This document shows, piece after piece, positions 17,781 to 39,103 of a DNA stretch of 64,000 bases. The stretch lies in assembly GCF_013283665.1 (NCBI RefSeq), contig NZ_JABEKU010000002.1:2074060-2138059 (forward strand). The letters run 5' to 3'. The stretch comes from Ensifer sesbaniae. Lineage in GTDB: Bacteria > Pseudomonadota > Alphaproteobacteria > Rhizobiales > Rhizobiaceae. Positions within the stretch are counted from its first letter, which is position 1. Every line of letters begins with the position of its first letter. Both the position numbers and the translations under genes were made by a program. Under the pieces are notes generated by a model. The model ran no database searches. It was not told the DNA's origin and was given only the letters and a program-made list of their open reading frames with translations.

Positions 17781-17850
17781 TAGACTCTCGCGACAATTTT
17801 AAACTACCCGGCCTGGAAGCTTATTCAGGAACCGTCAGGACTTAGCACCG

Positions 17851-22724: not shown

Positions 22725-22840
22725 GGACACAGCAGCGTAATGATTTGTGAAAGGGAAACGCGGCCATCGGCGAGGGTATCTCTTCGTTAGACGCTGAGGT
22801 GCGATTCAAGCTACAAAGCACATAACTGAGAGATCATGGA

Positions 22841-23647
22841 ATGGCCACCAATCGCCGAACTGGCAACCCGACGATTATCGACGCGCTGAAACGCAAGAAG
22901 AGTGTCATGAGCGCGGTGATCTTGCGGGATATGCGTACCCGGTTTTTCAATCATGGCCTCGGATTCCTCGTTGTTGTCATGTGGCCACTCGCTCATATGA
23001 TGATACTTTTGCTGATTGCGCGACTTACGGGGCGAAACACTCCGTATGGAGAAAGCCTGAATGTTTTCTTCGCCACCGGATTGATTCCAACACTCGCCTT
23101 TATGTACGTGTCGCGGTTTATGTCTTATTCAATGATCCTGAATAGACCGATGCTGGCGTTCCCACTTGTGAAGCCGTTCGACATAATGGCTGGCCGTGCT
23201 TTTCTTGAGATTATCGCCGCCTGTCTTACGCTGGCGACTATGCTAACTATTCTGACGCTCACCGGCGAGGATCCAATACCCTTCGATATCGAGCAAGCTG
23301 TGCTCGCGTACATGTCAGTGCTGTTGCTTGCTGTGGGAGTTGGCACACTGGTCGGTGTTATCGTTACATTTTTCCCACCATTCGTGACGGTCTACGCTTT
23401 ATCTTTGATTCTCATATACTTGTCGTCGGGAACAATGCTGGTTGTTTCGCAGTTGCCTGATCAGATCGCCATACCGCTTTCGTATAACCCTGTGACTGGC
23501 GTCGTTGAGTGGATGCGTACGGCGTATTTTCCGACATATAGCGACCGACTTGTCAGCAAGCCATACATCATCGGATTTGGCTTGGGGGCACTTTTCTTGG
23601 GGCTCTTGACAGAGCGCGTGCTACGCAGCAGGGTTTTGGAAGGATAG
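22841..23647 (+). CDS. kpsM: Capsular polysaccharide ABC transporter permease, KpsM/RkpT-type
   Basis: A 268-aa ABC-2 permease with about six membrane segments and the family block VILRDMRTRFFNHGLGFLVV near residue 27. With KpsT (9586) it forms the inner-membrane exporter. Its location at the far end of the cluster, separated from kpsT by the sugar genes, is unusual, since kpsM and kpsT are normally adjacent. Confidence 0.9.
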   Translation: MATNRRTGNPTIIDALKRKKSVMSAVILRDMRTRFFNHGLGFLVVVMWPLAHMMILLLIARLTGRNTPYGESLNVFFATGLIPTLAFMYVSRFMSYSMILNRPMLAFPLVKPFDIMAGRAFLEIIAACLTLATMLTILTLTGEDPIPFDIEQAVLAYMSVLLLAVGVGTLVGVIVTFFPPFVTVYALSLILIYLSSGTMLVVSQLPDQIAIPLSYNPVTGVVEWMRTAYFPTYSDRLVSKPYIIGFGLGALFLGLLTERVLRSRVLEG

Positions 23648-23793
23648 TTGACCTAAGTTCAAAGCCCCAATAGCCAATTGCTAAAGGCGCAAATCTATTG
23701 CGAGAGGCATTGTGGCCGGCGTGCAATCTAATCTAATCCTATCTCCAGCGAATAGGCGTCGCGCGATAAGTAGAACAAGGCGACTAGGTTCTT

Positions 23794-25020
23794 TCAGGTC
23801 AACCGATCATCTCTAAGGACATCAAGCCCTTTGCCGGCGGCTGACGTCATTTGGAACACCGCCCGCCGAGTTGCCGCCATCGCTCGCTCACGCACTGAGA
23901 AATCATCGATAAGTTGAAATAGCGTGCTTCGCCAGTCGTCCTCAACGTACGGCAGCCGGATTTCTCCATCATTGCACGAGTAGCCGTAAGCCTCTCCCTC
24001 AGAGAATACGGCGGCTGCTTGGTAGCGCGCAACGTCTATACGCTTGGTAGACGATCGGCTATCGTTGACGTGAGATGGCGCCAACGGAACGAGCATGATG
24101 TCAATACGCCGAGCATTTGCGTCGCCCAGATACTCCAGCCACGGCATCGGCTCACGGATTTGTACGCGATCAAGTCCTCGCCAGATCACTGCTGCACGTC
24201 GATCTGCAAACACCTCAAACCGAGCTTGCGGGCGCTCACGCAAAACCTCCGCTATAATCGGTCGGAGGAAACGATGTTCTTCCACGTGTACCCCGGTCGC
24301 GTGATAGGCGATCAAGACCTCTCCATTCGCCGGATCACACGTTTTAACATCGTCGTCTGTGTTAGACCAAAGCGATTTCGGTGGGGCCGGCGGCAATACA
24401 ACGGCCTTCGCCTGCCCCAGGCGAGACGCGAGGTTTGATGTGGAGGTCCAAACGATATCCAAATGCCTGTTCAGGCGGCCAAGCGGCCAAAGGGCGCGGT
24501 ACCAAAGGAATAGCCGATAGAGAAAATCCGCATCCTTCCCTGTTATGACAGCAGGGATGTCGTCGTCCACGAACAAGCCCACACCTGAGAGACGCCCCTC
24601 GTTGTGGTCAATCCAGCGAAGGGCGGACGGAGATGCGTAGCGACATATGATGACGAAAGCGCCGTCAGCGTCCAGATCCGGTGTTTCTTGGCCGCGAATA
24701 TCTGCCACCTGATAGGGCGGCATTTCAGGTGCCTGCAGCCGCGCTGCAAGGTAGTAGTCAAACGTCGGATTCGGTATCCGCCCGAACACGATGATCCGCT
24801 TTACGCGGCGCCTCGGGCGACCGCAGGCCCCTTCTCGCAGCCGTGGCTGAGGCAATCGCCGCTCAATCCAGTGCGCCATCCGTTCACGCGCTCTGCTCAA
24901 ACTCTCCACCTCGGCGAGATTTCTCGGATGGGCTTTGCAAACGACTTCTTCGGCGATGAATGAGAGGTTCGGATTGTAACAGGGATCGGATTTCAAGGTA
25001 TCGCTCCAACGCTCATGCAT
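23794..25020 (-). CDS. Glycosyltransferase, probably 5'-truncated
   Basis: The 408-aa reading frame begins with residues that match the tail of a GT2 domain (RWSDTLKSDPCYNPNLSF) rather than a true N-terminus. It continues into a GT4-like domain from about residue 72 (VKRIIVFGRIPNPTFDYY, VLIAYHATGVHVEE). An in-frame stop sits just before the first ATG, and only 140 bp separate it from an IS630 element. The catalytic GT2 part has thus probably been lost to the IS-linked rearrangement. It is convergent with kpsM. Confidence 0.65.
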   Translation of the reverse strand: MHERWSDTLKSDPCYNPNLSFIAEEVVCKAHPRNLAEVESLSRARERMAHWIERRLPQPRLREGACGRPRRRVKRIIVFGRIPNPTFDYYLAARLQAPEMPPYQVADIRGQETPDLDADGAFVIICRYASPSALRWIDHNEGRLSGVGLFVDDDIPAVITGKDADFLYRLFLWYRALWPLGRLNRHLDIVWTSTSNLASRLGQAKAVVLPPAPPKSLWSNTDDDVKTCDPANGEVLIAYHATGVHVEEHRFLRPIIAEVLRERPQARFEVFADRRAAVIWRGLDRVQIREPMPWLEYLGDANARRIDIMLVPLAPSHVNDSRSSTKRIDVARYQAAAVFSEGEAYGYSCNDGEIRLPYVEDDWRSTLFQLIDDFSVRERAMAATRRAVFQMTSAAGKGLDVLRDDRLT

Positions 25021-25161: not shown

Positions 25162-25849
25162 CTAGTCATCTGAATCCGAAATTCGTGTCATAAGCTGTTG
25201 TCGACCTTCTGACAGAAGCGCTTGACGGATGCGAGAATGTCGTCTGCCGATTTGGTCCAGCGATATGGCTTAGGGTTTTCGTTGTGGCGCTCGATAAAGC
25301 TTTTGATGTCGGCTTCGAGTTGAACAGTCGAAGTGTGGACGCCACGTCGTAGTTGCTTGACGTCTCACTGCGATGGGGCTGCAGGCCGAAGGCGTTCCAT
25401 ATCCGGCGGATCGTCGTGTGCGAAAAACCAGCGGCTCCTGCCATCGAGCGGATCGACCAATGGGTCGCATCCGTGGGCGTAGAACGCAGCGTGCGCTCGA
25501 TCACAGCAGCAATCTGATCATCGCCGATCGTGCGGGGCCGGCCAGGGCGAACTTCGTCGAGCAGGCCATCGAGCCGATCTTTAAGAAAGCGCCGCCGCCA
25601 TTTGCCAACCGTATGTTCATGCACGCCGAGTTCGCCGGCAACGACCTTGCTCGCAATTCCGTCGGCACAGCGAAGAATGATCCGGCACCGCTCTGACATG
25701 GAGCGAGCAACGCGATGCTTACGCACCTGCCGCTCCAAATACTCCCGCTCCGCCTCGCTCAAAATCAATGGTGCCGTCGGTCGGCCAGTCGCATTTGCCA
25801 TTGCTCAACCTCCCATGAACAGGCAAAGCGTTCAGTTCCAGAAGACTAG
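25162..25849 (-). mobile_element. Internally deleted IS630-type element
   Basis: The element is bounded by imperfect inverted ends starting CTAGTC(A/T)TCTG, with a TA in each CTAG edge as expected of IS630 insertion. At about 690 bp it is much shorter than a full IS630 element because the middle of the transposase is gone. Its right end (25162-25213) is repeated inverted at 3588-3639. Confidence 0.8.
25166..25801 (-). pseudogene. IS630-family transposase, internally deleted
   Basis: The N-terminal helix-turn-helix region is intact (VAGELGVHEHTVGKWRRRF, then DGLLDEVRPGRPRTIGDDQI) up to GLQPHRSE near residue 150. The DDE catalytic core is missing. The C-terminal piece follows in another frame (RGVHTSTVQLEADIKSFIE, then KPYRWTKSADDILASVK and the stop). 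The 211-aa open frame is therefore a deletion product with a nonsense tail and cannot be an active transposase. Confidence 0.85.
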
Positions 25850-25959: not shown

Positions 25960-26760
25960 TCAAGTCTCAACCGCTCCCGTCACGCTGGGCGCTTTTCGCA
26001 AATTGAGCGCTGGCGCCTCCCCTTCCAGCAACTCCACCCGCCGATCATAATTCGGCGCGATCGTCCCCATCACCCGGTCCCAGAACGAGAAATAGTTGGC
26101 GTAGTTGTATTTGAACTCGGCGTGGTGCTGGTCGTGATAGGTCGTACAAAGCATGGGCCAGGGATGGCGTGCCGTACGCGAGGCAAAGTATTCAAAGCCC
26201 GCGTGGCCGAAGGTGCCGTTGATCTGGTCGAACAACCGATGCGCCAAAAGAATGATCGGCGGGAACGGCACGAGGAAGGTGATGACGGCATAATAGCCCT
26301 GCGACAACGCCGTATCCACGAGGCCGATCGAATCGTTGCTCCAGACGGTCGGCGCGACGCTGCGGTGGTGGAGCAGGTGATACTTGTAGAAAGCCTTGGT
26401 GTGTAGCAGCCGGTGGGCGCAATAGAACCAGGCGTCGAAGAGCACCATGCAGAGCAGGAAGAGCGGCACGGCCGTCCACCAGCTGAAATCCCAGGGCGAA
26501 AAGAACGTCCAGCCCTGGTGCTGGACGAAGAGACCGATTGCGACCGACGTGCAGGTGACGAGGATTGATGCCATGCTCTGGCGGATTTCGGCGGCCTTGC
26601 GCTTCTCGCCGCGTCGCCCCTTCTGGATGCGGCGTTCGGGGTTGCGGTTGTTGAGCCATGTGATGCCATAGCCCAGAATGAAATAGACCAGCACCGTTGC
26701 CGCGTAGATGACAGCCAGCAAGGCAACAAAGGTAAGGCTGTCCTGGAGAAGGGCGCTCAA
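25960..26760 (-). CDS. Sterol desaturase/fatty acid hydroxylase family protein
   Basis: A 266-aa membrane protein with three histidine clusters expected for the di-iron hydroxylase family: HRLLH (116-120), HLLHH (128-132) and HDQHH (209-213). Membrane segments lie near residues 5-35, 62-85, 95-115 and 150-172. It is the last gene of the minus-strand operon that starts with the desaturase at 30406, 80 bp after the PanB-like gene. The substrate is unknown; a second di-iron oxygenase in one operon suggests two oxidation steps on one compound. Confidence 0.85.
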   Translation of the reverse strand: MSALLQDSLTFVALLAVIYAATVLVYFILGYGITWLNNRNPERRIQKGRRGEKRKAAEIRQSMASILVTCTSVAIGLFVQHQGWTFFSPWDFSWWTAVPLFLLCMVLFDAWFYCAHRLLHTKAFYKYHLLHHRSVAPTVWSNDSIGLVDTALSQGYYAVITFLVPFPPIILLAHRLFDQINGTFGHAGFEYFASRTARHPWPMLCTTYHDQHHAEFKYNYANYFSFWDRVMGTIAPNYDRRVELLEGEAPALNLRKAPSVTGAVET

Positions 26761-26840
26761 ATCGAAATCCGCTGCGGAAAGGGAGGTTCAGATGCCGATG
26801 GACTATACCAACCGCCCTCCCCGAGGCAAGTCATCCGGCG

Positions 26841-27638
26841 CTAATTGCGTTCCAGTTCGGCCAGGAACGTTTTGAGCTCACTTTGATCAATGCCAACGAG
26901 ATGCCGCTCTTCCGGATAGGCGCCGGATCGAACGTCTTCGGCAAATTCGGTGAATGCGCCAATCCGGTCCCGCTGAAGTCGATCATATTCGGCGGCGAAG
27001 TTGCGATAGGTCTTGGCGTGACGCGGCACGTGGCCGCGGTTGCTGCCGAGCACGTCATCGGCGAACAGGTATTGGGCGTCGCAACCCGAACCCGCCCCCA
27101 TCGACAGCATCAGCATGGAGGTTCGCGCACTGATCGCCGATGCGACGTCGCCGGGCACGACCTCGATCTCGGCGGCGAACGCTCCAGCTTCCTCGAGTGC
27201 TTTGACTTGCCGCCAGATCTCGAGCGCGCTCGCCGCGGTCTTGCCAACCGCCCGGAACCCGCCGGTCCATGTGGCCTTGGAGGGGATGAGCCCGACATGG
27301 CCGCAGACTGGAATGCCCTCCTCCCGCATGCACCGGACGGTCGAAAGACCGGCAGCGCAATAGACGGCATCACCGCCGGCCTTCAGCGCTTTGAATGCCG
27401 CCCGGATGTATTCTTCCGCCGAAACGTAGTCGCCATATTCGAGACCGGGAAAGGCAAAACAGGTTGGCGCTGCTTCCCGAAACTGCGGCCCCAGCAGTGC
27501 CGGCGGTACGGAGACGAGGTCGATACCGGCAGCTTCCGCCGCTTCGGCTTCGTCGAGTGTTTCCACCCGCAGCATGGTGAGTTGGCGTTTGCCCTTCATC
27601 GATAGGAGGTCGGCAACGGTCGGGCGGCGGCTTTTCAT
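26841..27638 (-). CDS. PanB-like protein lacking the metal ligands
   Basis: A 265-aa protein that aligns with ketopantoate hydroxymethyltransferase through IPVCGHVGLIPS (109-120), AEIEVVP (156-162), GAGSGCDAQYLFADDVLG (181-198) and GHVPRHAKTY. The catalytic glutamate equivalent to E. coli Glu181 is present (Glu159). The three Mg2+ ligands of E. coli PanB (Asp45, Asp84, Glu114) fall on Pro, Pro/Gly and Ala here, by my manual alignment. It is therefore unlikely to be ordinary PanB. Its place between MocF-like and hydroxylase genes points to one-carbon or keto-acid chemistry in that pathway. Confidence 0.75.
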   Translation of the reverse strand: MKSRRPTVADLLSMKGKRQLTMLRVETLDEAEAAEAAGIDLVSVPPALLGPQFREAAPTCFAFPGLEYGDYVSAEEYIRAAFKALKAGGDAVYCAAGLSTVRCMREEGIPVCGHVGLIPSKATWTGGFRAVGKTAASALEIWRQVKALEEAGAFAAEIEVVPGDVASAISARTSMLMLSMGAGSGCDAQYLFADDVLGSNRGHVPRHAKTYRNFAAEYDRLQRDRIGAFTEFAEDVRSGAYPEERHLVGIDQSELKTFLAELERN

Positions 27639-27690
27639 GAGAAGTCTCCGAAGTCAGTGAAACAGGTGAGGATGGGCGACAAGGCTCGCA

Positions 27691-28917
27691 CTAAGCGGCA
27701 AGCAGCGCCTTGAGTTTGGTTTCCGGCGAAACGAGCGCCCGAGGGTCGGGCCGTTTTCCGGCGGCAATCAACATTTCCGCAAGACGAATATCGCGCGCGA
27801 CAACATTGCCTGAGCCAATACCGGATGCGGCAAGTAGGCGGCCGGCGTCGTCGAGATGGAAAAGGATGAAGGCGCCGCCGGCGAGGTCGCGGCGTACGGT
27901 TGTGGCCGCTCCGTCGGCAAGTCCGGCAATCTGCAATGTCAGGTCATATTGGTCGGACCAGAACCACGGTACGCTGGTGATCGGCTCGTCCGCGCCCAGC
28001 AGATTGCCGGCAACAAGCGTTCCTTGGTCCTGCGCATTGCGCCAGGCCTCAAGGCGCACCCTCCGGTCGCCATAGTGACAGAGCGGATAGGAGCAGCAAT
28101 CGCCGGCCGCGAAGATATCGGGATCCGAAGTCTTGAGCGTCGCGTCGACCGCAATGCCATTGTCGATCATGAGACCCGCGGCTTCTGCCAACTCGGTATT
28201 CGGCGACGCGCCAATGCCGACGACCAGGAGATCAGCGTCGACCGATTGTCCGTTCGCAAGCAGGATGTGCACGCCGGCGTCATCCGCATCGATGCGATCG
28301 ATTTTCATATCACAACGGATGTCGACGCCTTCCGCGCGGTGTCGCTCTGCGATGACGGTTGCGATCTCGGCGGGGACGGCGCGCGAAAGGATGCGTGGCA
28401 GTCCTTCAATGAGGACAACCTCCACCCCGAGCCGGCGCGCCGTTGCCGCCAGCTCCAGCCCGATAAATCCGCCACCGATGATGGCAAGCTTTCGCCCGGG
28501 CAGAAGTTCGCGCCGGATCTCCTCGGCGTCCGCATGCGTTCTGAGCGTGCGAACGCGGCGAGACGCATCATCGGTTCCGGGTATCGTTCGCGCTCGGGCG
28601 CCGGTCGTCAGCAGGAGCCGATCATAGGGGATGCTGCCGCCGTCGACCAGTTCGACGCGCTTGGCGACGCGGTCGATTGCCTTAACCGGACTGTCGGTCA
28701 GAACGTCGATCCCTGCGGTCGCGTAGCGTTCGGCATCGGCGACATATTTCGGTTGAACCTGTTCCTTGACGCCGTCCTTCGAAAGCGGCGGCCGTTCGTA
28801 GGGAAGATGCGGCTCGGCGCCGATCAACGTGATTGACCCGTTGCAGCCTTTCTCCCTCAGGGCAAAGGCAGCTCTCGCGCCGCATTCGCCGGCGCCGACA
28901 ATGACGATTCCACCCAT
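27691..28917 (-). CDS. mocF: FAD-dependent ferredoxin reductase, MocF-like
   Basis: A 408-aa reductase of the rubredoxin/ferredoxin-NAD+ reductase type. It has an FAD dinucleotide motif GAGECGARAA at residue 8, a second NAD(P)H-binding GGGFIGLELA near 152 and the FAD-binding block DIFAAGDC. The start is the ATG at 28917 with AGGGAGGG just upstream; the frame before it is not real. It should pass electrons from NAD(P)H to the Rieske ferredoxin encoded 50 bp upstream. The order matches rhizopine mocDEF as known from Sinorhizobium. Confidence 0.85.
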   Translation of the reverse strand: MGGIVIVGAGECGARAAFALREKGCNGSITLIGAEPHLPYERPPLSKDGVKEQVQPKYVADAERYATAGIDVLTDSPVKAIDRVAKRVELVDGGSIPYDRLLLTTGARARTIPGTDDASRRVRTLRTHADAEEIRRELLPGRKLAIIGGGFIGLELAATARRLGVEVVLIEGLPRILSRAVPAEIATVIAERHRAEGVDIRCDMKIDRIDADDAGVHILLANGQSVDADLLVVGIGASPNTELAEAAGLMIDNGIAVDATLKTSDPDIFAAGDCCSYPLCHYGDRRVRLEAWRNAQDQGTLVAGNLLGADEPITSVPWFWSDQYDLTLQIAGLADGAATTVRRDLAGGAFILFHLDDAGRLLAASGIGSGNVVARDIRLAEMLIAAGKRPDPRALVSPETKLKALLAA

Positions 28918-28967
28918 TTCAACCCTCCCTGCCCGCTCTTGCTGAACTTTTCGCGTTGAAGCCGCAA

Positions 28968-29285
28968 TCAAGCGATCGCGATGAACACGCTTCCGGCCTC
29001 GACCTTCACCGGATAGGTCTTCAGGTTGACGCAAACCGGGGCGCCCTTGGCCTGGCCGGTCTTGTAGTTGAAGCGACCGTTGTGCTTCGGACATTCGATG
29101 ATGTCGTCCATCACGAGGCCGTCGGCCAGATGGATATGCTCGTGCGTGCAAAGTCCGTCGGTCGCGAAATATTCGTCGTCCGGGCTCCGGTAGACCGCAA
29201 AGGTGCGACCTTCGTGGTCGAATCGGATGACGTCTTCTTCATCGATTTCGTCCGCCGCGCAGACTTCAACCCAGTTTCCGCTCAT
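28968..29285 (-). CDS. mocE: Rieske-type 2Fe-2S ferredoxin, MocE-like
   Basis: A 105-aa soluble ferredoxin with the Rieske cluster ligands Cys46-x-His48 (CTHEH) and Cys65-x2-His68 (CPKH). The start is the ATG at 29285 with GGGAGG upstream; the longer frame overlaps the desaturase gene. It should carry electrons from the MocF-like reductase to the desaturase-type oxygenase, with gaps of 29 and 50 bp to these partners. Confidence 0.9.
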   Translation of the reverse strand: MSGNWVEVCAADEIDEEDVIRFDHEGRTFAVYRSPDDEYFATDGLCTHEHIHLADGLVMDDIIECPKHNGRFNYKTGQAKGAPVCVNLKTYPVKVEAGSVFIAIA

Positions 29286-29314
29286 GATTTCCTCCCATTT
29301 CCTGATTTCATTGG

Positions 29315-30406
29315 TTATTCGGCTGCATTCGCGATCGCGTCGCTGTGAAACTCCTCGCGGTAGGGCTTCGCCGTCGCCGGCAGTTCGCGCTTCAGGAAAT
29401 AATCCTCGTTGCGCAACTGCCGCAGGAAGGCCGGGATCATCTCGCGATAGCCGTGCAGCATCGACGGGTTCGGCGCCGGCAGATCGTGCTTGATCATCGC
29501 GTGAAGCTTCGGCAGCGCGTGATAGGGCACCATCGGGAACATGTGGTGCTCCACATGGTAGTTCATGTTCCAATAGACGAAGCGGCTGACCGGGTTCATG
29601 TAGACAGTGCGGCTGTTCAGCCGATGGTCCGTTACGTTGTCGGCGAGACCGCCATGCTGCAGCAGCCCGGTCAGCACATGGTGCCAGGCCCCGTAAAGCC
29701 GCGGCAGACCGATCAGCATCAGCGGCAGGATCGAACCGAGGTAGAGCGAGAGCGCGATCGTTACCGCGTAGATGGCAAACCAGATGCGGGCAACAAGGAT
29801 CGCCTTCGGCTGCTCCATTTCCGGAATGAATGTCGCTTCCTCGGCACTGATGATGCCAAGCGTGTTGCGGACCATGTCGATGCCCGCATGCCAGACATCG
29901 AGAATACCGAAGAAGTTCAAGACGAGGCGCAGGAGATCCGGCGGCCGCATGACGGCGATCTCAGGATCGCGGCCGACGATGACGGTGTCCGTGTGGTGGC
30001 GCGTGTGGCTCCAGCGCCAGGTGACGGGGTTGCGCATGATCATGAAGCAGGCGATCTGGTAGACGGCGTTGTTCATCCACATCGTCTTGAACGCCGTGCC
30101 ATGCCCGCATTCGTGCCAGCGACTGTCAGAGGCCGAGCCGTAGAGGACGCCATAGGCGAGGAAACACGGAATGGCCCACCAGCTGCCCCAGAGGGTGATG
30201 CCGAGCCCGCCGAAGAGAACGAGGCAACCGAGCCAGATCGCGGTGTCGCGAATGGCCGGTCCATCCTCACGCTTCATCAGTTCCTTCATCTGCTTGCGCG
30301 GGATCTCCGTGTGATACCACTCCGCGGCCGAAAGGCCGTTGGCGACGGCCGCCTGGGCATCACGCCCGAGGAGACTGTAATCTCGCTTCGTTGGAACCAT
30401 CGCCAT
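29315..30406 (-). CDS. mocD: Membrane fatty-acid-desaturase-type oxygenase, MocD-like
   Basis: A 363-aa integral membrane di-iron enzyme with histidine boxes HECGH (98-102), HTRHH (134-138) and HVEHH (284-288) and about four membrane segments. The start is the ATG at 30406 with AGGGAGGAG eight bases upstream. With the ferredoxin and reductase that follow it resembles MocD of rhizopine catabolism, which removes the O-methyl group of 3-O-methyl-scyllo-inosamine (family knowledge). It is first in its operon and divergent from the LacI regulator. The exact substrate here is inference. Confidence 0.85.
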   Translation of the reverse strand: MAMVPTKRDYSLLGRDAQAAVANGLSAAEWYHTEIPRKQMKELMKREDGPAIRDTAIWLGCLVLFGGLGITLWGSWWAIPCFLAYGVLYGSASDSRWHECGHGTAFKTMWMNNAVYQIACFMIMRNPVTWRWSHTRHHTDTVIVGRDPEIAVMRPPDLLRLVLNFFGILDVWHAGIDMVRNTLGIISAEEATFIPEMEQPKAILVARIWFAIYAVTIALSLYLGSILPLMLIGLPRLYGAWHHVLTGLLQHGGLADNVTDHRLNSRTVYMNPVSRFVYWNMNYHVEHHMFPMVPYHALPKLHAMIKHDLPAPNPSMLHGYREMIPAFLRQLRNEDYFLKRELPATAKPYREEFHSDAIANAAE

Positions 30407-30499
30407 TTGCTCTCCTCCCTGCGATCCGGCCAGCTTGGCCAGGAGCGTCCGATGTCGTGCAATGACGATAGGTTGACTTTTGCTAGGTCTCAATGCAGC

Positions 30500-30542
30500 A
30501 ATGATATATTCTCTCAAATGATGTCATTCACTGCATATCATT
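30500..30542. promoter_or_regulatory. Candidate LacI-type operator in the divergent promoter region
   Basis: Nested dyad between mocD and the regulator: outer arms AATGATAT (30500-30507) and ATATCATT (30535-30542) surround a perfect inner palindrome AATGATGTCATT (30517-30528). The half ATATCATT occurs again at 31620-31627, ahead of the isomerase gene. Shared use at both promoters fits a local regulator binding site. Confidence 0.55.
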
Positions 30543-30570
30543 CGTGATGCAAACCTATCAGGAGGAAGCG

Positions 30571-31602
30571 ATGAGCAGTCGTCCGACCATTGCCGACCTC
30601 GCACGGGCTGCCGGCGTCAGTGTCGCGACTGTCGATCGCGTCCTGAATGGCCGCCATCCCGTGCGCGAGGAAACGGCGCGCCGTGTCTACGAGGCTGCCA
30701 AGTCTATCGGCTACCACGCAGTCGGCCTCATTCGCCAGCGTGTCTTCGAGGATCTGCCGCAATACAAGCTTGCCTTCGTGCTGCAGAAGCCGGAGCAGTC
30801 CTTCTACAAGGCGGTTGCAAAGGAGATCGAGAACGCCGCATTGTCGCTGTCGAACGCGCGCGTATTCGCGCAGATCGACTTCGTGGCAAATTCCACGCCG
30901 ACGGCGATAACCGACAAGCTCCGCGCTGCCGCGGCGCGAAACCAGGCAGTTGCGCTCGTCGCCCCCGACTACCCGGCTGTCACGGCCGCGATCGAGGAAT
31001 TGAAGGAGCGCGGAATTCCGGTCTTCTCGCTGCTTTCGGACTTCGCCGCCGGCGTGCGTGAAGGTTATGTCGGGCTCAACAACCACAAGGTCGGTCGAAC
31101 CGCCGCATGGATGATCGCCAAGGCGGCCAAACGCCCCGGCAAGGTGGCAGCCTTCGTCGGCAGCCATCGCTTCCTCGGCCACGAGCTTCGAGAGATCGGG
31201 TTTCGCTCCTATTTCCGCGAGCATGTGCCAGATTTCGAAGTCCTTGATACCATGGTCAACCTCGACACGGCCGAGATCACGCACGAAGCAACGCTGAACC
31301 TTTTGCAGCGCCACCCGGATCTGATCGGCTTCTACGTCTGCGGCGGAGGCATGGAAGGCGCCATCTCGGCTATCCGCGAGGAAAAACTGGAAGGCAAGCT
31401 CATCGCCGTCGTCAACGAACTGACGCCGGAGTCCCGAGCAGCCCTTGGAGACGACGTCGTCACGTTGGCGATTTCGACCCCAACCGCGGCCCTGGCACGC
31501 GAAACGATCAATCTGATGATCCAGGCGATCGACAAAGGTCCGACGGGCGCCCCAGGGCAAACATTCCTTCCCTTTGACCTCTTCACGCCCGAGAATATCT
31601 AG
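30571..31602 (+). CDS. LacI-family transcriptional regulator
   Basis: A 343-aa regulator with the N-terminal LacI helix-turn-helix (TIADLARAAGVSVATVDRVL, residues 6-25) and hinge, followed by a periplasmic-binding-protein-like sensor domain. The ATG at 30571 follows AGGAGGAAG at good spacing. It is divergent from the Moc-like operon and upstream of the isomerase and transporter genes, so it probably represses both until a cyclitol-type inducer is present. Confidence 0.92.
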   Translation: MSSRPTIADLARAAGVSVATVDRVLNGRHPVREETARRVYEAAKSIGYHAVGLIRQRVFEDLPQYKLAFVLQKPEQSFYKAVAKEIENAALSLSNARVFAQIDFVANSTPTAITDKLRAAAARNQAVALVAPDYPAVTAAIEELKERGIPVFSLLSDFAAGVREGYVGLNNHKVGRTAAWMIAKAAKRPGKVAAFVGSHRFLGHELREIGFRSYFREHVPDFEVLDTMVNLDTAEITHEATLNLLQRHPDLIGFYVCGGGMEGAISAIREEKLEGKLIAVVNELTPESRAALGDDVVTLAISTPTAALARETINLMIQAIDKGPTGAPGQTFLPFDLFTPENI

Positions 31603-31778
31603 CGAACCGTGATAGATTTATATCATTGACGAAAGACAATATTGCAGCAATGCAAGCTGTTTGAGCGCCATGCTCTTTGACTGTTCTCCAGCAGTTGGTG
31701 AAATGTCCGCGACGATGTAAATGGAATGAACGTTCTATTTATAGCGCGCAACCCATCCCCACTGGAGGAGACATTCCC
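31603..31778 (+). promoter_or_regulatory. Promoter region of the isomerase gene with repeated regulator motifs
   Basis: Contains ATATCATT at 31620-31627 (same as in the divergent promoter), the near-palindrome ATTGCAGCAAT around 31639-31649, which is also partly present at 30492-30501, and TGGAATGAACGTTC from 31722. The recurrence suggests regulator sites; the binding protein is not proven. Confidence 0.4.
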
Positions 31779-32591
31779 GTGACAGCCCTGCCCTTCGCCC
31801 TCAATCATATGACGACGCCCGGCCTTTCGCTCGGCGCCTTCTTCGAACTTGCAAAGTCCCTAGGGATCACCTCCGTTGAAATCCGCAACGACCTTGCGGG
31901 CAATGCCATCATCGACGGCACACCGGCCAAGGATGTAGCGGCACTCGCCGCCAGCAACGGCATTACGATCATCTCCATCAACGCGCTGCAGCGCTTCAAC
32001 GAATGGAATTCGGCGCGTCAGAAAGAGGCCGAAGAGTTGATCGCCTATGCGCGCGACTGCGGCGCCAAGGCCCTCGTTCTCGTTCCCGTCAACGACGGCT
32101 CCGGCCAGGCGGACGGCGAGCGTCAGGCAAATCTTCGCGAAGCACTTACCGCACTGAAACCGATGCTCGAATCGGCCGGAATCGCCGGCCTCGTCGAGCC
32201 GCTGGGCTTCGAAATCTGCTCGCTGCGCTCGAAGACCGAGGCAGTCGAGGCGATCAAGGCCACCGGAGGCGAGAAGACCTTCCGGCTGGTGCACGACACG
32301 TTCCACCACCATCTTGCCGGCGAGCCCGCGACCTATCCTGAGATGACCGGGCTCGTGCATATTTCCGGCGTAACCGACGGCCGGATTGCCGTTTCCGATC
32401 TGCGCGACTCGCATCGCGTTCTGGTCGACCAGGACGACCTTCTCGACAACGTCGGACAGATCCGGCGCCTGCGTACCGAAGGCTATGCAGGACCGCTTTC
32501 CTTCGAGCCGTTTGCCGCCGAAGTTCACGACGTTGCCGATCCCGCTGCTGCGATCAAGCAGAGCATGGACCACATTCGAGCCCGGATCTGA
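31779..32591 (+). CDS. Sugar phosphate isomerase/epimerase family protein, IolE/MocC-like
   Basis: A 270-aa TIM-barrel protein of the xylose-isomerase-like superfamily. A conserved LVHDTFHHHLAGE segment near residue 170 and a GPLSFEPFA strand near the end supply the metal-site residues. The start is GTG at 31779 with GGAGGAG nine bases upstream; the longer frame has no such signal. MocC of rhizopine catabolism and IolE of inositol catabolism belong to this group, which fits the neighbouring transporter. Confidence 0.82.
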   Translation: MTALPFALNHMTTPGLSLGAFFELAKSLGITSVEIRNDLAGNAIIDGTPAKDVAALAASNGITIISINALQRFNEWNSARQKEAEELIAYARDCGAKALVLVPVNDGSGQADGERQANLREALTALKPMLESAGIAGLVEPLGFEICSLRSKTEAVEAIKATGGEKTFRLVHDTFHHHLAGEPATYPEMTGLVHISGVTDGRIAVSDLRDSHRVLVDQDDLLDNVGQIRRLRTEGYAGPLSFEPFAAEVHDVADPAAAIKQSMDHIRARI

Positions 32592-32619
32592 CCTGTCGCC
32601 GCGGGCGACGGGAAAACGA

Positions 32620-32653
32620 TGAGGGCGCCGCAACAGGTCTTGACGGCGCCTCA
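32620..32653 (+). terminator. Hairpin after the isomerase gene
   Basis: TGAGGGCGCCG pairs with CGGCGCCTCA (one bulged G) around a 13-nt loop. No T-run follows on the plus strand, so it may be a weak terminator or an mRNA-end structure separating the isomerase from the transporter genes. Confidence 0.45.
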
Positions 32654-32660
32654 TAAAAAT

Positions 32661-32674
32661 GGAATACATATTCC
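32661..32674. promoter_or_regulatory. Perfect 14-bp palindrome upstream of the binding-protein gene
   Basis: GGAATACATATTCC is a perfect palindrome 150 bp before the transporter operon. A related half site (TGGAAT) lies ahead of the isomerase gene at 31722. It is a candidate operator for a dimeric regulator. Confidence 0.45.
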
Positions 32675-32825
32675 GTGATTGCAATTTACTGGTTCGTTTG
32701 TTCCGTTTTTTCTTTGAAGGCGTAACGGGAGTGGCGCTTTCAATGTGAATGAGCGCAATCCGGCAAGGATTGCGCTCCCGGCAAGGAGAAGGTGTCGCCG
32801 GGCACCATTGTGGAGGAGAAAGACT

Positions 32826-33755
32826 ATGAAGAAATTCGTGCTGGGCACAGCGCTGGCAGTGATGATGTCGACGGTTGCGCATGCCGAGACCATCGGCGTA
32901 TCGATGGCCCTTTTCGATGACAACTTCCTGACGGTCTTGCGCAACGGTATGTCCGACTACGCAAAGACCCTCGACGGCGTCGAGCTGCAGATCGAAGACG
33001 CGCAGAACGATGTCTCGAAGCAGCAGAGCCAGATCCAGAACTTCATCGCCGCCGGTGTCAGCGCCATCATCGTCAACCCGGTCGATACCGACGCGACAGC
33101 AGCCATGTCGAAGATTGCGGCAGACGCCGGCATTCCGCTCGTCTATGTCAACCGCGAGCCGGTCAACGTCGACACCCTGCCGGAGAAGCAGGCTTTCGTC
33201 GCTTCGAACGAACAGGAATCCGGCACGCTGCAGACGCAGGAAATCTGCAAGATGCTCAACGGCAAGGGCAAGGCCGTCGTGATGATGGGCGAACTCTCCA
33301 ACCAGGCTGCCCGCATGCGTACCAAGGATATCCACGACGTTCTGGCAACCGACCAGTGCAAGGGTATCGAGATCGTCGAGGAGCAGACTGCCAACTGGTC
33401 GCGTACCCAGGGCTCCGACCTCCTGACGAACTGGCTGTCGGCCGGCGTTGAATTCGATGCCGTCATTTCGAACAACGACGAAATGGCGATCGGCGCGATC
33501 CAGGCGCTGAAGGCCGCTGGCCGCTCGATGGACTCGGTCGTCATCGGTGGTATCGATGCGACACAGGACGCACTTGCGGCCATGGCTGCGGGCGACCTCG
33601 ACGTGACCGTGTTCCAGAACGCTGCCGGCCAGGGCAAGGGTTCGGTGGACGCTGCACTCAAGCTCGCCAAGGGCGAACCGGTCGAAAAGAAGGTCTATAT
33701 TCCCTTCGAGCTGGTGACCAAGGAAAACCTCGACACGTATCAGGCGAAGAACTGA
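32826..33755 (+). CDS. Periplasmic sugar/cyclitol-binding protein (IbpA/MocB-like)
   Basis: A 309-aa type 1 binding protein. It has a signal peptide (MKKFVLGTALAV, cleavage after AHA), then IGVSMALFDDNFLTVLRNGM, which resembles inositol-binding IbpA, and the family blocks IVNPVDTDATAAM and ISNNDEMAIGAIQAL. The ATG at 32826 is used; upstream codons are leader. It delivers substrate to the ABC transporter encoded next. Inositol or a rhizopine is the likely ligand by context. Confidence 0.85.
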   Translation: MKKFVLGTALAVMMSTVAHAETIGVSMALFDDNFLTVLRNGMSDYAKTLDGVELQIEDAQNDVSKQQSQIQNFIAAGVSAIIVNPVDTDATAAMSKIAADAGIPLVYVNREPVNVDTLPEKQAFVASNEQESGTLQTQEICKMLNGKGKAVVMMGELSNQAARMRTKDIHDVLATDQCKGIEIVEEQTANWSRTQGSDLLTNWLSAGVEFDAVISNNDEMAIGAIQALKAAGRSMDSVVIGGIDATQDALAAMAAGDLDVTVFQNAAGQGKGSVDAALKLAKGEPVEKKVYIPFELVTKENLDTYQAKN

Positions 33756-33765
33756 TCGCCTTCAA

Positions 33766-33795
33766 ACGAGAGCGCGGAAACTTCCGCGCTCTCGT
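33766..33795 (+). other. Stable hairpin between binding-protein and ATPase genes
   Basis: A perfect 13-bp stem (ACGAGAGCGCGGA with its complement) and an AACT loop, starting 11 bp after the stop codon and lacking a T-run. Such structures in sugar ABC operons commonly protect the binding-protein mRNA and lower expression of downstream genes. Confidence 0.6.
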
Positions 33796-33918
33796 TCAAA
33801 TGCAAGTCCCGCTGCGGATGTCCGCGTCCCGTTGGATGCGACCTGCGACAAATGGGCTGGTGACCCGCCAGCAACGAGGCCTTTCGGCAACAGCCGGAAA
33901 TGACGGGGAGGCAATTAA

Positions 33919-35460
33919 ATGACGCTCAGTCCGACAACGATGGCAGCCGTGCGCGCCAGCGGCGCCGTGCCCAAGGCCGAATATCTTCTTTCGGCGGAAG
34001 GCATCCGCAAGGAATTCCCGGGTGTCGTTGCCCTCGACGACGTCGAGTTCAAGCTCAAGCGCGGCACGGTCCATGCGCTGATGGGCGAAAACGGCGCCGG
34101 CAAATCCACGCTGATGAAAATCCTCGCCGGCATCTATACGCCCGATAAGGGCGAAGTCAGGCTGAAAGGCGTCGACATCCGTCTAAAGTCGCCGCTCGAC
34201 GCGCTCGAAAACGGCATTGCCATGATCCATCAGGAACTGAACCTGATGCCGTTCATGACGGTGGCGGAAAATATCTGGATCCGCCGCGAACCGAAGAACC
34301 GCTTCGGCTTCGTCGATCACGGCGAGATGAACCGCATCACGGCCCGACTTTTCGATCGCCTGAAGATCAAGATTGATCCGGAGATCGAGGTGCGCCACCT
34401 GTCAGTCGCCAACCGCCAGATGGTCGAGATCGCCAAGGCGGTTTCCTACGAATCCGACGTCTTGATCATGGACGAGCCGACCTCGGCGCTGACCGAGCGT
34501 GAGGTCGCGCACCTGTTCGAGATCATCCGCGACCTGCGCGAACAGGGCATCGGTATTGTCTACATCACCCACAAGATGAACGAGCTCTTCGAGATCGCCG
34601 ACGAGTTCTCGGTGTTCCGCGACGGCAAGTTCATCGGCACCCATGCCTCGAGCGACGTCACCCGCGATGACATCATTCGCATGATGGTTGGCCGCGAGAT
34701 CACCCAGATGTTCCCGAAAGAGGAAGTGCCGATCGGCGACGTCGTGCTTTCGGTGAAGAACCTGGCGCTCGACGGTGTCTTCCGCGATGTCTCCTTCGAT
34801 GTCCGCGCCGGGGAAATCCTCGGGATCGCCGGCCTCGTCGGCTCCGGCCGCTCGAATGTCGCCGAAACGCTCTTTGGCGTGACACCGGCGAGTTCCGGCA
34901 CGATTGCGATCGACGGCAAGGCGCTTTCGATCGACAGCCCGAACACGGCTATCAAGAACCGCATGGCGTTCCTGACCGAGGACCGCAAGGACACGGGCTG
35001 TCTTCTGATCCTCGACATCCTCGAAAACATGCAGATCGCCGTGCTCCAGGATCGCTTCGTTAAGGGCGGCTTCGTCACCGAGAAGCAGATCACCGTCGCT
35101 TGCGAAGAGATGAGCCGCAAGCTGCGCGTTAAGACGCCGAACTTGCAGGAGCGCATCGAGAACCTCTCCGGCGGTAACCAGCAGAAAGTGCTGATCGGCC
35201 GCTGGCTGCTCACCAATCCGCGCATCCTGATCCTCGACGAGCCGACACGCGGCATCGATGTGGGCGCCAAGGCGGAAATCCACCGCCTCGTCACCGAGCT
35301 GGCGCGAAACGGTGTCGCCGTCATCATGATTTCTTCGGAAATGCCAGAGGTGCTCGGCATGAGCGACCGCATCATGGTCATGCACGAGGGCCGCGTCACC
35401 GGCTTCCTCGACAGGGCGGAAGCAACCCAGATCAAGGTCATGGAGCTCGCCGCGAGCTGA
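33919..35460 (+). CDS. Sugar/cyclitol ABC transporter ATP-binding protein
   Basis: A 513-aa protein with two fused ATPase domains, as in RbsA/MglA/IatA. The first has Walker [10 protein letters not shown] near residue 56 and Walker [11 protein letters not shown]. The second has the degenerate loop GLVGSGRSN near 310, the signature LSGGNQQK near 418 and Walker [12 protein letters not shown]. It energises the importer of the preceding binding protein and the next gene's permease. Confidence 0.9.
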
Positions 35461-35488
35461 GCGGGAAGCGACCCGACGAAAGGGAGGA

Positions 35489-36520
35489 ATGAAAATGGAT
35501 ACCAATGTCGCCGCACAGGGCACGAGCACGGCGCTCGTTGGCGCAAAGCGCCGCCTGCCGCCCGAATTCAACATCTTCCTGGTGCTGATCGGCATCGCCC
35601 TCGTCTATGAAGTTCTCGGCTGGATCTTCGTTGGCCAGAGCTTCCTCATGAATTCGCAGCGCCTGACGATCATGATCCTGCAGGTCTCGGTGATCGGCAT
35701 CATCGCCGTCGGCGTGACCCAGGTCATCATCACCGGCGGCATCGATCTCTCCTCAGGCTCCGTCGTCGGCATGACGGCGATGATCTCGGCAAGCGTCGCT
35801 CAGGCATCAACCTGGCCACGGGCCCTCTATCCGTCGCTCACCGACATGCCTGCGATCGTTCCGATCGGCCTTGGGATCGGCATCGGCTTGCTCGCCGGCG
35901 TCATCAACGGCCAGCTCATCGCCCGCACGAAGATCCCGCCTTTCATCGCCACGCTCGGCATGATGGTGTCGGCACGCGGCATTTCCAAGTGGTACACCAA
36001 GGGACAGCCGGTCTCGGGCCTCACCGAGCAGTTCAACTTCATCGGCACCGGCATCTGGCCCGTCATCGTCTTCCTGGTCGTCGCGATCATCTTCCACATC
36101 GCACTGCGCTACACCCGTTACGGCAAGTTCACCTACGCAATCGGCGCCAACGTCCAGGCGGCGCGCGTCTCGGGCATCAATGTCGAAGCGCACCTGATCA
36201 AGGTCTACGCCATTGCCGGCATGCTGGCGGGGCTCGCCGGTGTCGTTACCGCTGCCCGCGCTCAGACGGCCCAGGCCGGCATGGGCGTCATGTACGAACT
36301 GGACGCGATCGCCGCGACCGTCATCGGCGGAACGTCGCTGACCGGCGGTGTGGGCCGGATCACCGGCACGGTCATCGGCACGATTATCCTCGGCGTGATG
36401 ACCTCTGGTTTCACCTTCCTGCGCGTCGACGCCTACTATCAGGAAATCGTCAAGGGCCTGATCATCGTCGCCGCCGTCGTCATCGACGTCTATCGACAGA
36501 AAAACCGCAAGAAGGTCTGA
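35489..36520 (+). CDS. Sugar/cyclitol ABC transporter permease
   Basis: A 343-aa permease of the RbsC/IatP group with about nine to ten membrane helices and the family block GGIDLSSGSVVGM near residue 83 and GGTSLTGGVGRI near 280. It starts at ATG 35489 with AGGGAGG upstream; ATG 35495 is an alternative. It is the last gene of the operon, followed by a strong terminator. Confidence 0.9.
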   Translation: MKMDTNVAAQGTSTALVGAKRRLPPEFNIFLVLIGIALVYEVLGWIFVGQSFLMNSQRLTIMILQVSVIGIIAVGVTQVIITGGIDLSSGSVVGMTAMISASVAQASTWPRALYPSLTDMPAIVPIGLGIGIGLLAGVINGQLIARTKIPPFIATLGMMVSARGISKWYTKGQPVSGLTEQFNFIGTGIWPVIVFLVVAIIFHIALRYTRYGKFTYAIGANVQAARVSGINVEAHLIKVYAIAGMLAGLAGVVTAARAQTAQAGMGVMYELDAIAATVIGGTSLTGGVGRITGTVIGTIILGVMTSGFTFLRVDAYYQEIVKGLIIVAAVVIDVYRQKNRKKV

Positions 36521-36972: not shown

Positions 36973-38352
36973 CTAGCCCGCCGGAAAGCGGATGGTCACC
37001 TTCAGGCCGCGACCGTCCGCCCCTTCGTTGAGACTGGTCGTCGCCCCATAAAGATCCGCGATCTCCTCGACGATCGGCAGGCCGAGCCCCGAACCCGGCG
37101 CTTCGCTGCCTCCGCGCTCGAAGCGCCGCAACACTCTCTCGCGCAACTCCGCCCGAATGCCCGGGCCATTATCCTCGACCTCCAGCGACACGGATCCGCT
37201 GTCTGCAACAACGCGTGTCGTCACTTCGGCACCTGAGCCGGCATAGAGCAAGGCGTTGCCGATCAGGTTCTTGAGCATCTCGGCCACCAGCAGCGGCTCG
37301 GCGCGAATGAAGGCTTCGCCTTCGCCGTCGAAGCCGAGATCGATATCGGCCTCTCCAGCCGCCGGCACGTGTTCCGCGGTGATCTCGCGCGCGAGTTCGA
37401 CAAGATCGACACGCTCCAGCATCCGCGCCTCGTTCTTGCCCGCCGCGTCGATTTTCGCCATCAGCAGCAATTGCCCCAGGATGCGTTCAGCATTGGCGAC
37501 GGCTTCGTCGGCCTTTTTCACAGCACTCTTCGTCTCCTCGAAGGACCCGGCACGCTGAGCCAAGGCGAGCTGGGTCCGAATGATCGCAAGCGGCGTTCGC
37601 AATTGATGGCTGGCGTTGCCGGTGAAATTGCGCAGCGCATCGAGCGCCGATTGCAGCCGCCCCATGAAGGAATTGACCGTGTCGACGAGCCCCTGGACTT
37701 CGTTTGGCACGCGTTCACCAATCGGGTGCAGATCATCAGGATTACGCTCGGCGATCGCGTCTCCCAGCCGATAAAGCGGGCGCAGCGAAAATGTGACTGC
37801 GATCCAGACGATAACCGCGGCGCCGGCGATCATCATGCCGAGACGAAGAGCCGATCGGACCAGAATGGTCTGCGCCAGTTGCCGGCGCGCAATCGTCGTT
37901 TCGGCAACGGTGACGACGAAGGGCACCGAATTGATGCCGGTCGAGGCGGAACGGCGAAGGGCGGCGATGCGGATCGGTTCGCCACGAAAGGTCGCATCCG
38001 CGAAGGTCGTGGATGTCCCAGGTTCTTCGGCAAGCGACGGAAGCGTCTGGTAGCCGGTGATGAACTGGCCGGGCGGGCCGTCGACCCTGTAGAAAACGCG
38101 ATCCTGTGCGGCAGAGGTCAGCATCTCCAGGGCGACATAGGGGATATCGACCTCGAGCGAGCCGTCCTCTGCCACGACCACACGCTCCGCGATCGCCAAG
38201 GCGGAGCCAGCGAGCACGCGGTCGGAGACGACGTTGGCGGTCGTGACCGCCTCCCGATAGGTATCCATGAGCGCAATCACGCCGATGACGACTGTCGAAA
38301 TCAGCAGCCAGCCAAGTAGGCGCCGGCGGAGGCTGTAGACCGTCGCTCTCAT
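36973..38352 (-). CDS. tctE: Sensor histidine kinase, TctE-like
   Basis: A 459-aa membrane kinase. It has a membrane helix at about 12-30, a periplasmic TctE-type sensor domain (about 31-165), a second helix (about 170-190), a HAMP-like linker, an H-box NASHQLRTPLA with His249, and an ATPase domain with GSGLGLPIVEEI. It overlaps the response regulator gene by 4 bp (ATGA). It probably senses tricarboxylates for the tctCBA operon 3 kb away. Confidence 0.9.
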   Translation of the reverse strand: MRATVYSLRRRLLGWLLISTVVIGVIALMDTYREAVTTANVVSDRVLAGSALAIAERVVVAEDGSLEVDIPYVALEMLTSAAQDRVFYRVDGPPGQFITGYQTLPSLAEEPGTSTTFADATFRGEPIRIAALRRSASTGINSVPFVVTVAETTIARRQLAQTILVRSALRLGMMIAGAAVIVWIAVTFSLRPLYRLGDAIAERNPDDLHPIGERVPNEVQGLVDTVNSFMGRLQSALDALRNFTGNASHQLRTPLAIIRTQLALAQRAGSFEETKSAVKKADEAVANAERILGQLLLMAKIDAAGKNEARMLERVDLVELAREITAEHVPAAGEADIDLGFDGEGEAFIRAEPLLVAEMLKNLIGNALLYAGSGAEVTTRVVADSGSVSLEVEDNGPGIRAELRERVLRRFERGGSEAPGSGLGLPIVEEIADLYGATTSLNEGADGRGLKVTIRFPAG

Positions 38353-39026
38353 TCGGGCCCGGCCATCTTGTCGAGGTAGTAGCCAATGCCGCGGGCGGTG
38401 CGAACGGTGAGGCCATGCGGCGCCAACCGCTTGCGCAGCCGGCTGACATATTGCTCGATCGCATTGGGGCTCAAATCGTCGTCGAAGCCGGTCAGCGACT
38501 GCATGATCGCATCCTTGGCGACCACCTTGCCGGCCCGCATGAACAGGAGTTCGAGAAGGCCTAATTCGCGCGCAGGGATCTCGATCGGCGCGCCGCCTGA
38601 GGAGAAGCTGCGGGTATTGAGATCAAGCGAAACATTGCCATAGCTCACCGTGGATGCCCTGAGGCCCGCCTGCCGGCGCAGCAACACGCGCACGCGCGCC
38701 TCGAGCTCCCCGACGTCGAACGGCTTGATCATGTAGTCGTCGGCGCCGAGATCGAGCCCCTTGATCCGTTCCTCAGGCGCTCCCCGCGCAGTAAGGATCA
38801 GCACCGCCGCACGGTTCTGCCGGGCGCGCATTGCCCGTAGCACATCGAGCCCGTCCATTTCCGGCAGGTTGAGGTCGAGAATGACGAGATCGAAGGTTTC
38901 AGCCGCAGCGACCGCATGCGCCGACGCCCCGTCACTGACGACGTCGACGGCGTAGCCGCTGCCACGCAAAATGGCAGACAAACCCTCGGCCAGGTCCTGG
39001 TTGTCCTCAACAAGCAAGATGCGCAA
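38349..39026 (-). CDS. tctD: OmpR-family response regulator, TctD-like
   Basis: A 225-aa regulator with a receiver domain (acidic pocket ED near 7-8, phosphoacceptor Asp51 in LVILDLNLPEMDG, Lys in MIKPFD) and an OmpR winged-helix output domain (about 125-220, ending RTARGIGYYL). It is cotranscribed with and overlaps tctE, and is divergent from the binding-protein gene at 39104. Tandem direct repeats ahead of tctC are a likely target. Confidence 0.92.
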   Translation of the reverse strand: MRILLVEDNQDLAEGLSAILRGSGYAVDVVSDGASAHAVAAAETFDLVILDLNLPEMDGLDVLRAMRARQNRAAVLILTARGAPEERIKGLDLGADDYMIKPFDVGELEARVRVLLRRQAGLRASTVSYGNVSLDLNTRSFSSGGAPIEIPARELGLLELLFMRAGKVVAKDAIMQSLTGFDDDLSPNAIEQYVSRLRKRLAPHGLTVRTARGIGYYLDKMAGPE

Positions 39027-39103
39027 ATATCGTCACTCCCTGCACCACCTTATCCGGCGACGCCTTGCTTGTGAACGGTGACGCACTGAGGCATTGTGGA
39101 TTC

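Follow-up and report, generated by a model that had tools for sequence, protein, structure and literature searches.

Gene content and proposed regulation of the locus

The window analysed here is a stretch of 64,000 nucleotides of Ensifer sesbaniae (NZ_JABEKU010000002.1), on contig C2 (>2.1 Mb) of a genome of 6.9 Mb in five contigs. Between its positions 25960 and 36520 lie five minus-strand genes, encoding MocD-, MocE- and MocF-like proteins, a PanB-like protein and a second hydroxylase, which are divergent from a plus-strand set for a LacI regulator, an isomerase and a three-gene ATP-binding cassette (ABC) importer. The main finding of this analysis is the PanB-like protein rather than the five-gene set. 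The genes and candidate operators are as follows.

25960–26760, minus strand: second di-iron hydroxylase (FA_hydroxylase), the fifth gene; PF04116, 88 bits; motifs HRLLH, HLLHH, HDQHH
26841–27638, minus strand: PanB-like TIM-barrel protein, proposed one-carbon-handling partner; PF02548, 142.6 bits
27691–28917, minus strand: mocF-like FAD/NAD(P)H ferredoxin reductase; PF07992, PF14759; NCBIfam dioxygenase-reductase models below cut-off
28968–29285, minus strand: mocE-like Rieske 2Fe-2S ferredoxin, putative electron donor; TIGR02377, 187 bits against a cut-off of 136; motif CTH...CPKH
29315–30406, minus strand: mocD-like membrane di-iron oxygenase (FA_desaturase fold), proposed O-demethylase; PF00487, 123 bits; motifs HECGH, HTRHH, HVEHH
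30502–30516, unstranded: candidate LacI operator between mocD and lacI; 12 or 13 of 15 matches to TGATAGAATCTATCA, depending on strand
30545–30560, unstranded: candidate LacI operator between mocD and lacI; 12 of 16 matches to the palindrome
30571–31602, plus strand: LacI-family regulator; PF00356, PF13407
31610–31625, unstranded: candidate LacI operator upstream of the isomerase and importer genes; 14 of 16 matches, the top match of the 64-kb window
31779–32591, plus strand: MocC/IolE-like TIM-barrel isomerase (AP_endonuc_2); PF01261, 98.5 bits
32826–33755, plus strand: periplasmic sugar/cyclitol-binding protein (Peripla_BP_4), by domain match
33919–35460, plus strand: importer ATPase with two ABC domains, by domain matches
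35489–36520, plus strand: ABC importer permease; PF02653

The preliminary description had listed this same set of oxygenase components, PanB-like protein, second hydroxylase, regulator, isomerase and importer, and every gene was found in its place. The gaps between the five minus-strand genes are 29, 50, 52 and 80 bp, so that a single transcript is plausible. Ten plasmid or chromid records, all with an Ensifer or Sinorhizobium label, contain at least 80% of the 10.7-kb region, and other genera again show four of the minus-strand genes together; the gene set is therefore not a chance assembly. The catalytic motifs expected of a three-component membrane di-iron oxygenase are intact in both di-iron enzymes and in the Rieske protein, the FAD/NAD motifs are likewise present, and the motif histidines of the MocD-like protein are kept in 7 aligned relatives. 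The NCBIfam models nearest to the mocF-like protein are anthranilate and phenylpropionate dioxygenase reductases, both below cut-off. For MocD, no sequence relative of solved structure was found at E<=0.01, and the isomerase matched no NCBIfam family at E<=0.001. A comparison with PHROGs gave no match.

The three best palindrome matches in the 64 kb are those at 30502, 30545 and 31610. Because the palindromes stand at both promoters, they suggest that the window genes form one LacI regulon. The consensus came from one relative, L156. In the window and 24 relatives chosen for comparison, the best palindrome match was 11 or more in 22 of the 25 mocD/lacI upstream regions and, among the 15 isomerase upstream regions that were located, in 13; letter-shuffled regions reached this level in about 5% of cases.

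Several features adjoin the locus. Directly downstream of the fifth gene, at 25166–25801, an open frame resembles a fragment of an IS630-type transposase, on a reading of the sequence. Adjoining the importer, at 36973–40171, the list of open reading frames gives an apparent two-component system and a divergent periplasmic-binding-protein gene. The G+C content of 6001–24000 is about 50–54%, compared to about 60% in most of the remainder, and this segment is possibly a horizontally acquired island.

The PanB-like subfamily and pantothenate synthesis

AlphaFold gives a confident TIM barrel for the PanB-like protein (mean pLDDT 95.8), and the first 28 rows of a Foldseek search are chains of ketopantoate hydroxymethyltransferase (KPHMT), to which sequence identity is about a quarter. 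The Pantoate_transf domain (PF02548) is matched over its cut-off, as expected of a KPHMT fold. The scores with the NCBIfam PanB models are below cut-off, with 102 bits against 207.55 for TIGR00222 and 127 against 272 for NF001452. By alignment, none of 98 PanB-like proteins has the GDS/GDT motif (D45-S46 in E. coli PanB), D84, K112 or E114. Among canonical PanB proteins (n=23) the motif is found in 18 (with 5 gaps), D84 in 23, K112 in 21 and E114 in 18. These residues have metal or keto-acid roles in the E. coli enzyme. The PanB-like proteins retain H114 and E159, the equivalents of E. coli H136 and E181. Two further residues, E157 and H207, are invariant in the PanB-like proteins and replaced in canonical PanB by valine (22 of 23) and phenylalanine (22 of 23), respectively; the invariant PanB-like residues include H114, E157, E159, D195 and H207.

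On these alignments and models, the PanB-like proteins are a separate subfamily with a predicted PanB fold. Profiles of the subfamily recover class-sample members at E<1e-75 and full-length members in the family and phylum samples at E<1e-88, and a clear score gap parts them from other PanB homologues. All strong matches among the 398 genomes of the phylum sample fall within the window's own class. Of the 199 genomes in the family sample, 50 have a match at E<=1e-40, and one of these, G794 (2e-47), reaches only the level of canonical PanB.

Some homologues (L088–L090 and L220–L222) keep the GDS motif and K112, have serine or cysteine for D84 and glutamine for E114, and carry the E157 residue. 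They were rejected both as PanB-like members and as plain controls, and form a separate intermediate group. PhyH adjoins the gene in L090 and lies within 10 kb in L220, L221 and L222. The intermediate open reading frames lie near the middle of their stretches, and in L089 near the start.

Canonical PanB and PanC are encoded side by side on another contig, C1, of the window's genome. Canonical PanB is missing from 10 of 34 genomes with a PanB-like gene (one 88% complete, the others 99–100%). PanC is also absent from all 10 of these; the 6 genomes with canonical PanB that were tested all have it. As the genomes that lack canonical PanB lack PanC as well, the PanB-like protein does not serve pantothenate synthesis; a role as a pantothenate enzyme was rejected on the changed residues together with the absence of PanC. 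It could be argued that the protein is a working KPHMT that sits by chance in a demethylation operon, given the PF02548 match, the KPHMT fold and the two retained residues aligned to H136 and E181. Considering that all four metal/keto-acid positions are altered in 98 of 98 proteins, that the scores are under the NCBIfam PanB cut-offs, that the window's genome has its own adjacent canonical PanB and PanC, and that the PanB-like gene is retained in 10 of 10 genomes without PanC, we regard this as very improbable.

Oxygenases and one-carbon genes beside PanB-like genes

The neighbourhoods of 97 PanB-like loci were compared with those of control PanB loci. L088–L090 (<250 bits) and L091–L092 (no PanB-like gene) were excluded, and the controls number 27, or 24 canonical ones when the intermediate-type L220–L222 are removed. 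Within 10 kb of the PanB-like gene, MocD is found at 62 loci, a match to the sterol-desaturase model at 15 (3 of them the fifth gene of the window type) and PhyH at 13. At least one oxygenase of MocD, sterol-desaturase or PhyH type lies within this distance at 84 of 97 loci, with the fifth gene uncounted, compared to 4 of 27 controls or 1 of 24 canonical ones (Fisher p=4e-12 and 1e-14, respectively; the loci are related and the p values nominal). PhyH is rare overall: at E<=1e-10 there are 77 matches, spread over 35 genomes, and the window's genome has none. The type of oxygenase partner switches at least 7 times on the PanB-like tree, which was built by a quick method with 72 rows, 62 of them labelled by the nearest oxygenase (three by hand) and two long branches flagged. 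Four layouts recur: LacI/MocD-MocE-MocF-PanBlike, Gfo-TIM-SBP-ABC-DUF4432-MocD-MocE-PanBlike, SterolDes-SBP-ABC-Gfo-TIM-MocE-TIM-PanBlike-(PurU) and PhyH-ABC-ribokinase-(RbsD)-PanBlike, where SBP denotes a substrate-binding protein.

At L198, L200, L202 and L204–L207 the cluster reads PhyH-permease-SBP-ABC-ribokinase-(RbsD)-PanBlike, a candidate pathway for O-methylated ribose. In L085 (6834–10044) a GH4 glycosidase gene stands between MocD and the PanB-like gene, which suggests a methylated glycoside as the substrate there.

The preliminary description had looked to a conserved co-occurrence of all five minus-strand genes. This was seen only in Ensifer and Sinorhizobium, and what is widespread is the four-gene core of MocDEF and the PanB-like protein. 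The fifth gene, which has a TTG start and no clear ribosome-binding site, is found at 3 of the 97 loci, namely the window and two genomes of the same genus, and, as judged by DNA coverage, in the 10 Ensifer or Sinorhizobium records. Its assignment as the ornithine-lipid hydroxylase OlsE was rejected (NCBIfam, 26.4 bits against a cut-off of 475). It should be mentioned that some lipid and amino-acid hydroxylases belong to the MocD-type and FA_hydroxylase families, and weak NCBIfam similarity to GntB, DesB and OlsE was seen. The oxygenases might accordingly hydroxylate a target other than an O-methyl group (an N-methyl group, a ring carbon or a lipid), with the PanB-like protein and PurU present for unrelated reasons. 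These NCBIfam matches are far under their cut-offs, however, and the context is one of sugar import and cyclitol catabolism with PurU or FolD at some loci, which makes such a target unlikely.

One-carbon genes stand close by in several genomes. In Agrobacterium HAMBI 105 the order is MocD-E-F-PanBlike-PurU-FolD in a row, and in Nitratireductor MocD-E-F-PurU, with iolG and an importer across LacI. PurU is found at 13 of 97 PanB-like loci and 0 of 27 controls (p=0.07). In L079 the PanB-like gene is part of an iol operon that also encodes MocE, an IolG-like dehydrogenase, PurU, an IolC-type kinase, an IolD-type thiamine pyrophosphate enzyme and IolB, with a sterol-desaturase gene upstream. In L178 it stands after iolC, two genes resembling iolD and iolE, and iolB, with MocDEF about 14 kb off; IolC and IolB were assigned there by cluster, the iolD- and iolE-like genes by eye. 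A putative role of the PanB-like protein in handling a one-carbon unit is the most economical explanation of its neighbours. The earlier proposal that this protein could take up the released carbon by PanB-type chemistry is supported for the one-carbon role, to which the PurU and FolD neighbours point. PanB-type chemistry itself is not supported, because the metal/keto-acid residues are gone in all 98 relatives.

The protein could instead work on the demethylated product or its carbon skeleton, as a lyase, isomerase or hydratase of a keto-cyclitol or keto-sugar. It does accompany sugar dehydrogenases, TIM-barrel isomerases, ribokinase/RbsD and iol genes, and H114, E157, E159, D195 and H207 could make a new site for such a reaction. 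The skeleton enzymes vary by layout (iol, ribokinase/RbsD, gluconolactonase/IlvD, GH4), however, and the oxygenase is the commonest common element, while PurU and FolD point to one carbon. Activity on the skeleton is in our view rather unlikely, though it deserves more weight than the hydroxylation of a different target.

Several observations weigh against a one-carbon partnership between the PanB-like protein and the oxygenases. The PurU enrichment is by itself not significant, and the Nitratireductor MocDEF-PurU stretch holds no PanB-like gene. No oxygenase lies within 10 kb at 13 of the 97 loci; three of these (L079, L214, L178) have one farther away and eight (L074, L075, L077, L080, L081, L186, L193, L197) have a contig end within 10 kb, and at L087 and L196, with full flanks, none of the three oxygenases was seen. 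Four of 10 class-sample genomes with MocD above 280 bits are without a strong PanB-like match, so the PanB-like protein is not indispensable to MocD systems. PhyH also lies within 10 kb in the canonical control L244 and in three intermediate-type controls. At MocD loci without a nearby PanB-like gene (L327–L332), local models found no PurU or PanB-like gene as a replacement one-carbon gene.

When named genome contigs were scanned with a single distant PanB-like member, taken from a genome of 1.6 Mb, 72 loci were recovered, of which 70 are strong. The majority carry the label uncultured Alphaproteobacteria, in single-cell or metagenome assemblies with AG- names, probably from surface-ocean cells; another three are assigned to Pelagibacteraceae or Candidatus Pelagibacter, and a single contig of 3.5 kb to Akkermansiaceae (possibly misbinned). 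The 70 strong loci are close relatives and were counted as one lineage. MocD is found in 67 of them, a sterol-desaturase gene in 63 and either in 69, and 59 of 70 combine MocD, MocE, MocF and the sterol-desaturase gene. Many operons among L251–L320 have two MocD genes, and some have two PanB-like genes, plus the sterol-desaturase gene in a row. Candidate affiliations of these small-genome relatives are canonical SAR11 and AEGEAN-169. For AEGEAN-169, a broader sugar use has been reported in excerpts of PMC10308909, in whose main text the words inositol, phytanoyl and desaturase are all absent.

Proposed pathway, substrate and known systems

From gene content, palindromes, the subfamily, the decoupling from PanC and the oxygenase pairing, all established by comparison, we infer the demethylation reaction, its substrate and the activity of the PanB-like protein. 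A demethylation module is likely. We propose a catabolic module under LacI control that acts on an O-methylated cyclitol or sugar: MocD would demethylate the substrate and the PanB-like protein would handle the one-carbon unit. We give this reading a probability of roughly 0.6. The ABC importer would take up the substrate, and electrons would pass from NAD(P)H through MocF and the Rieske ferredoxin MocE to the membrane di-iron MocD. MocD would hydroxylate the O-methyl group to a hemiacetal, R-O-CH2OH, that would yield the free cyclitol or sugar and formaldehyde. The Ensifer-type second hydroxylase may carry out the same reaction at another position or on another substrate. The TIM-barrel isomerase and dehydrogenases would then route the demethylated product into inositol or sugar catabolism, and the PanB-like protein would most likely transfer the hydroxymethyl group or formaldehyde to tetrahydrofolate (THF), for disposal by FolD and PurU.

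More specifically, the PanB-like protein may be a new one-carbon enzyme. As a descendant of PanB, it would have lost keto-acid/metal catalysis, gained a new site of H114, E157, E159 and H207, and loaded formaldehyde or the hemiacetal hydroxymethyl group onto THF, as an adaptor shared by MocD, sterol-desaturase-type and PhyH oxygenases for methylated cyclitols and sugars in rhizobia and apparently pelagic alphaproteobacteria. This fuller proposal is tentative, and we hold it with less confidence than not. If it is true, genes now annotated for pantothenate synthesis, fatty-acid desaturation and rhizopine catabolism would in fact remove methyl ethers, together with a one-carbon partner dedicated to this task. 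The same module would also make methylated sugars usable for bacteria with small genomes and an apparently oceanic habitat, and a vague "extra PanB" annotation would become a sharp biochemical question, the loading of formaldehyde or a hydroxymethyl group onto THF.

The preliminary description had proposed a cyclitol or rhizopine pathway of O-demethylation. The cyclitol/sugar module is borne out by the PurU/FolD neighbours, the iol context and the four-gene core; the rhizopine part is not. Rhizopine (3-O-methyl-scyllo-inosamine) is not supported as the substrate, as the binding protein scores 45.2 bits against a cut-off of 420 for the rhizopine-binding family and the regulator is a LacI. One could still think of a modified moc cluster in which LacI stands in for MocR, a regulator of GntR/aminotransferase type, since MocE is above the cut-off of its family and mocDEF belongs to the rhizopine region, where the S. 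meliloti L5-30 mocDEF promoter answers scyllo-inosamine (excerpts of PMC10107442). Beyond the weak binding protein and the missing MocR, no match to the rhizopine-binding model was found at E<=1e-100 in the window's own genome, and the module recurs in non-rhizobial genomes. When the model was run against 199 Rhizobiaceae genomes, four loci were over the cut-off (G286:C76, G685:C10, G550:C13 and G694:C508, fetched as L323–L326), with no MocD or PanB-like gene in the 13–19.5 kb fetched. We therefore consider a rhizopine cluster quite improbable, and the family name may cover other cyclitols, because its over-cut-off members stand without MocD or a PanB-like gene.

S. meliloti 1021 is not known to use rhizopine. 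Homologues of mocDEF are listed for this strain in excerpts of PMC11387232. In R. mesoamericanum, Mimosa root exudate induces homologues of mocDEF together with an ABC operon that includes a mocB homologue, and pinitol is the most concentrated component of this exudate (145 uM, compared to 0.73 uM inositol); the authors interpret the induction as rhizopine catabolism (excerpts of PMC5789663). Methylated inositols such as pinitol and ononitol are widespread in legumes, according to excerpts of PMC8730688. As a pinitol-rich exudate induces mocDEF and methylated inositols are common among legumes, these are the first candidates in rhizobia, and the likeliest rhizobial substrate is a legume methyl-inositol such as pinitol or ononitol. 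Elsewhere other methylated sugars are suggested, because layouts carry ribokinase/RbsD or gluconolactonase/IlvD. Among titles and abstract beginnings of the open-licence literature, neither a PanB-like protein accompanied by a demethylase nor a set of genes for methylated cyclitol use came up. Bahar 1998, cited in PMC10107442 and PMC5789663, reportedly describes mocDEF in its title as a ferredoxin oxygenase complex.

One of the closest known systems is encoded by the rhizopine region of S. meliloti L5-30 and R. leguminosarum, which has in common with the window a di-iron MocD, a Rieske MocE and a reductase MocF and a link to cyclitol catabolism, the order D-E-F being assigned here by family. 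As the four rhizopine-binding loci hold no MocD or PanB-like gene, comparison with a full moc cluster rests on PMC10107442, whose excerpted text names the units mocDEF, mocR, mocBA and mocC and no PanB-like gene. The window differs in having LacI, another binding protein, the PanB-like protein and the second hydroxylase. A possible counterpart of the MocC-type isomerase is its AP_endonuc_2 TIM barrel without NCBIfam assignment. In porphyran-degrading Flavobacteriia, oxidative O-demethylation of 6-O-methyl-D-galactose also uses three components and releases formaldehyde, but with a P450 and not a di-iron enzyme (Reisky 2018, via excerpts of PMC10033563, where a PanB-like protein is unmentioned and the adjoining zinc alcohol dehydrogenase is without formaldehyde activity). 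With canonical PanB (PF02548), the PanB-like protein shares the fold, about a quarter of its sequence and the residues H136 and E181, but differs in the changed metal/keto-acid positions, the two other invariant residues, the occurrence in genomes without PanC and the ties to oxygenases. Demethylation clusters such as those for dimethylglycine and sarcosine oxidation also contain PurU and FolD; the methyl carbon is carried on THF and released as formate, and THF is loaded by an aminomethyltransferase-type domain. In the system described here, the candidate THF loader would be the PanB-like protein.

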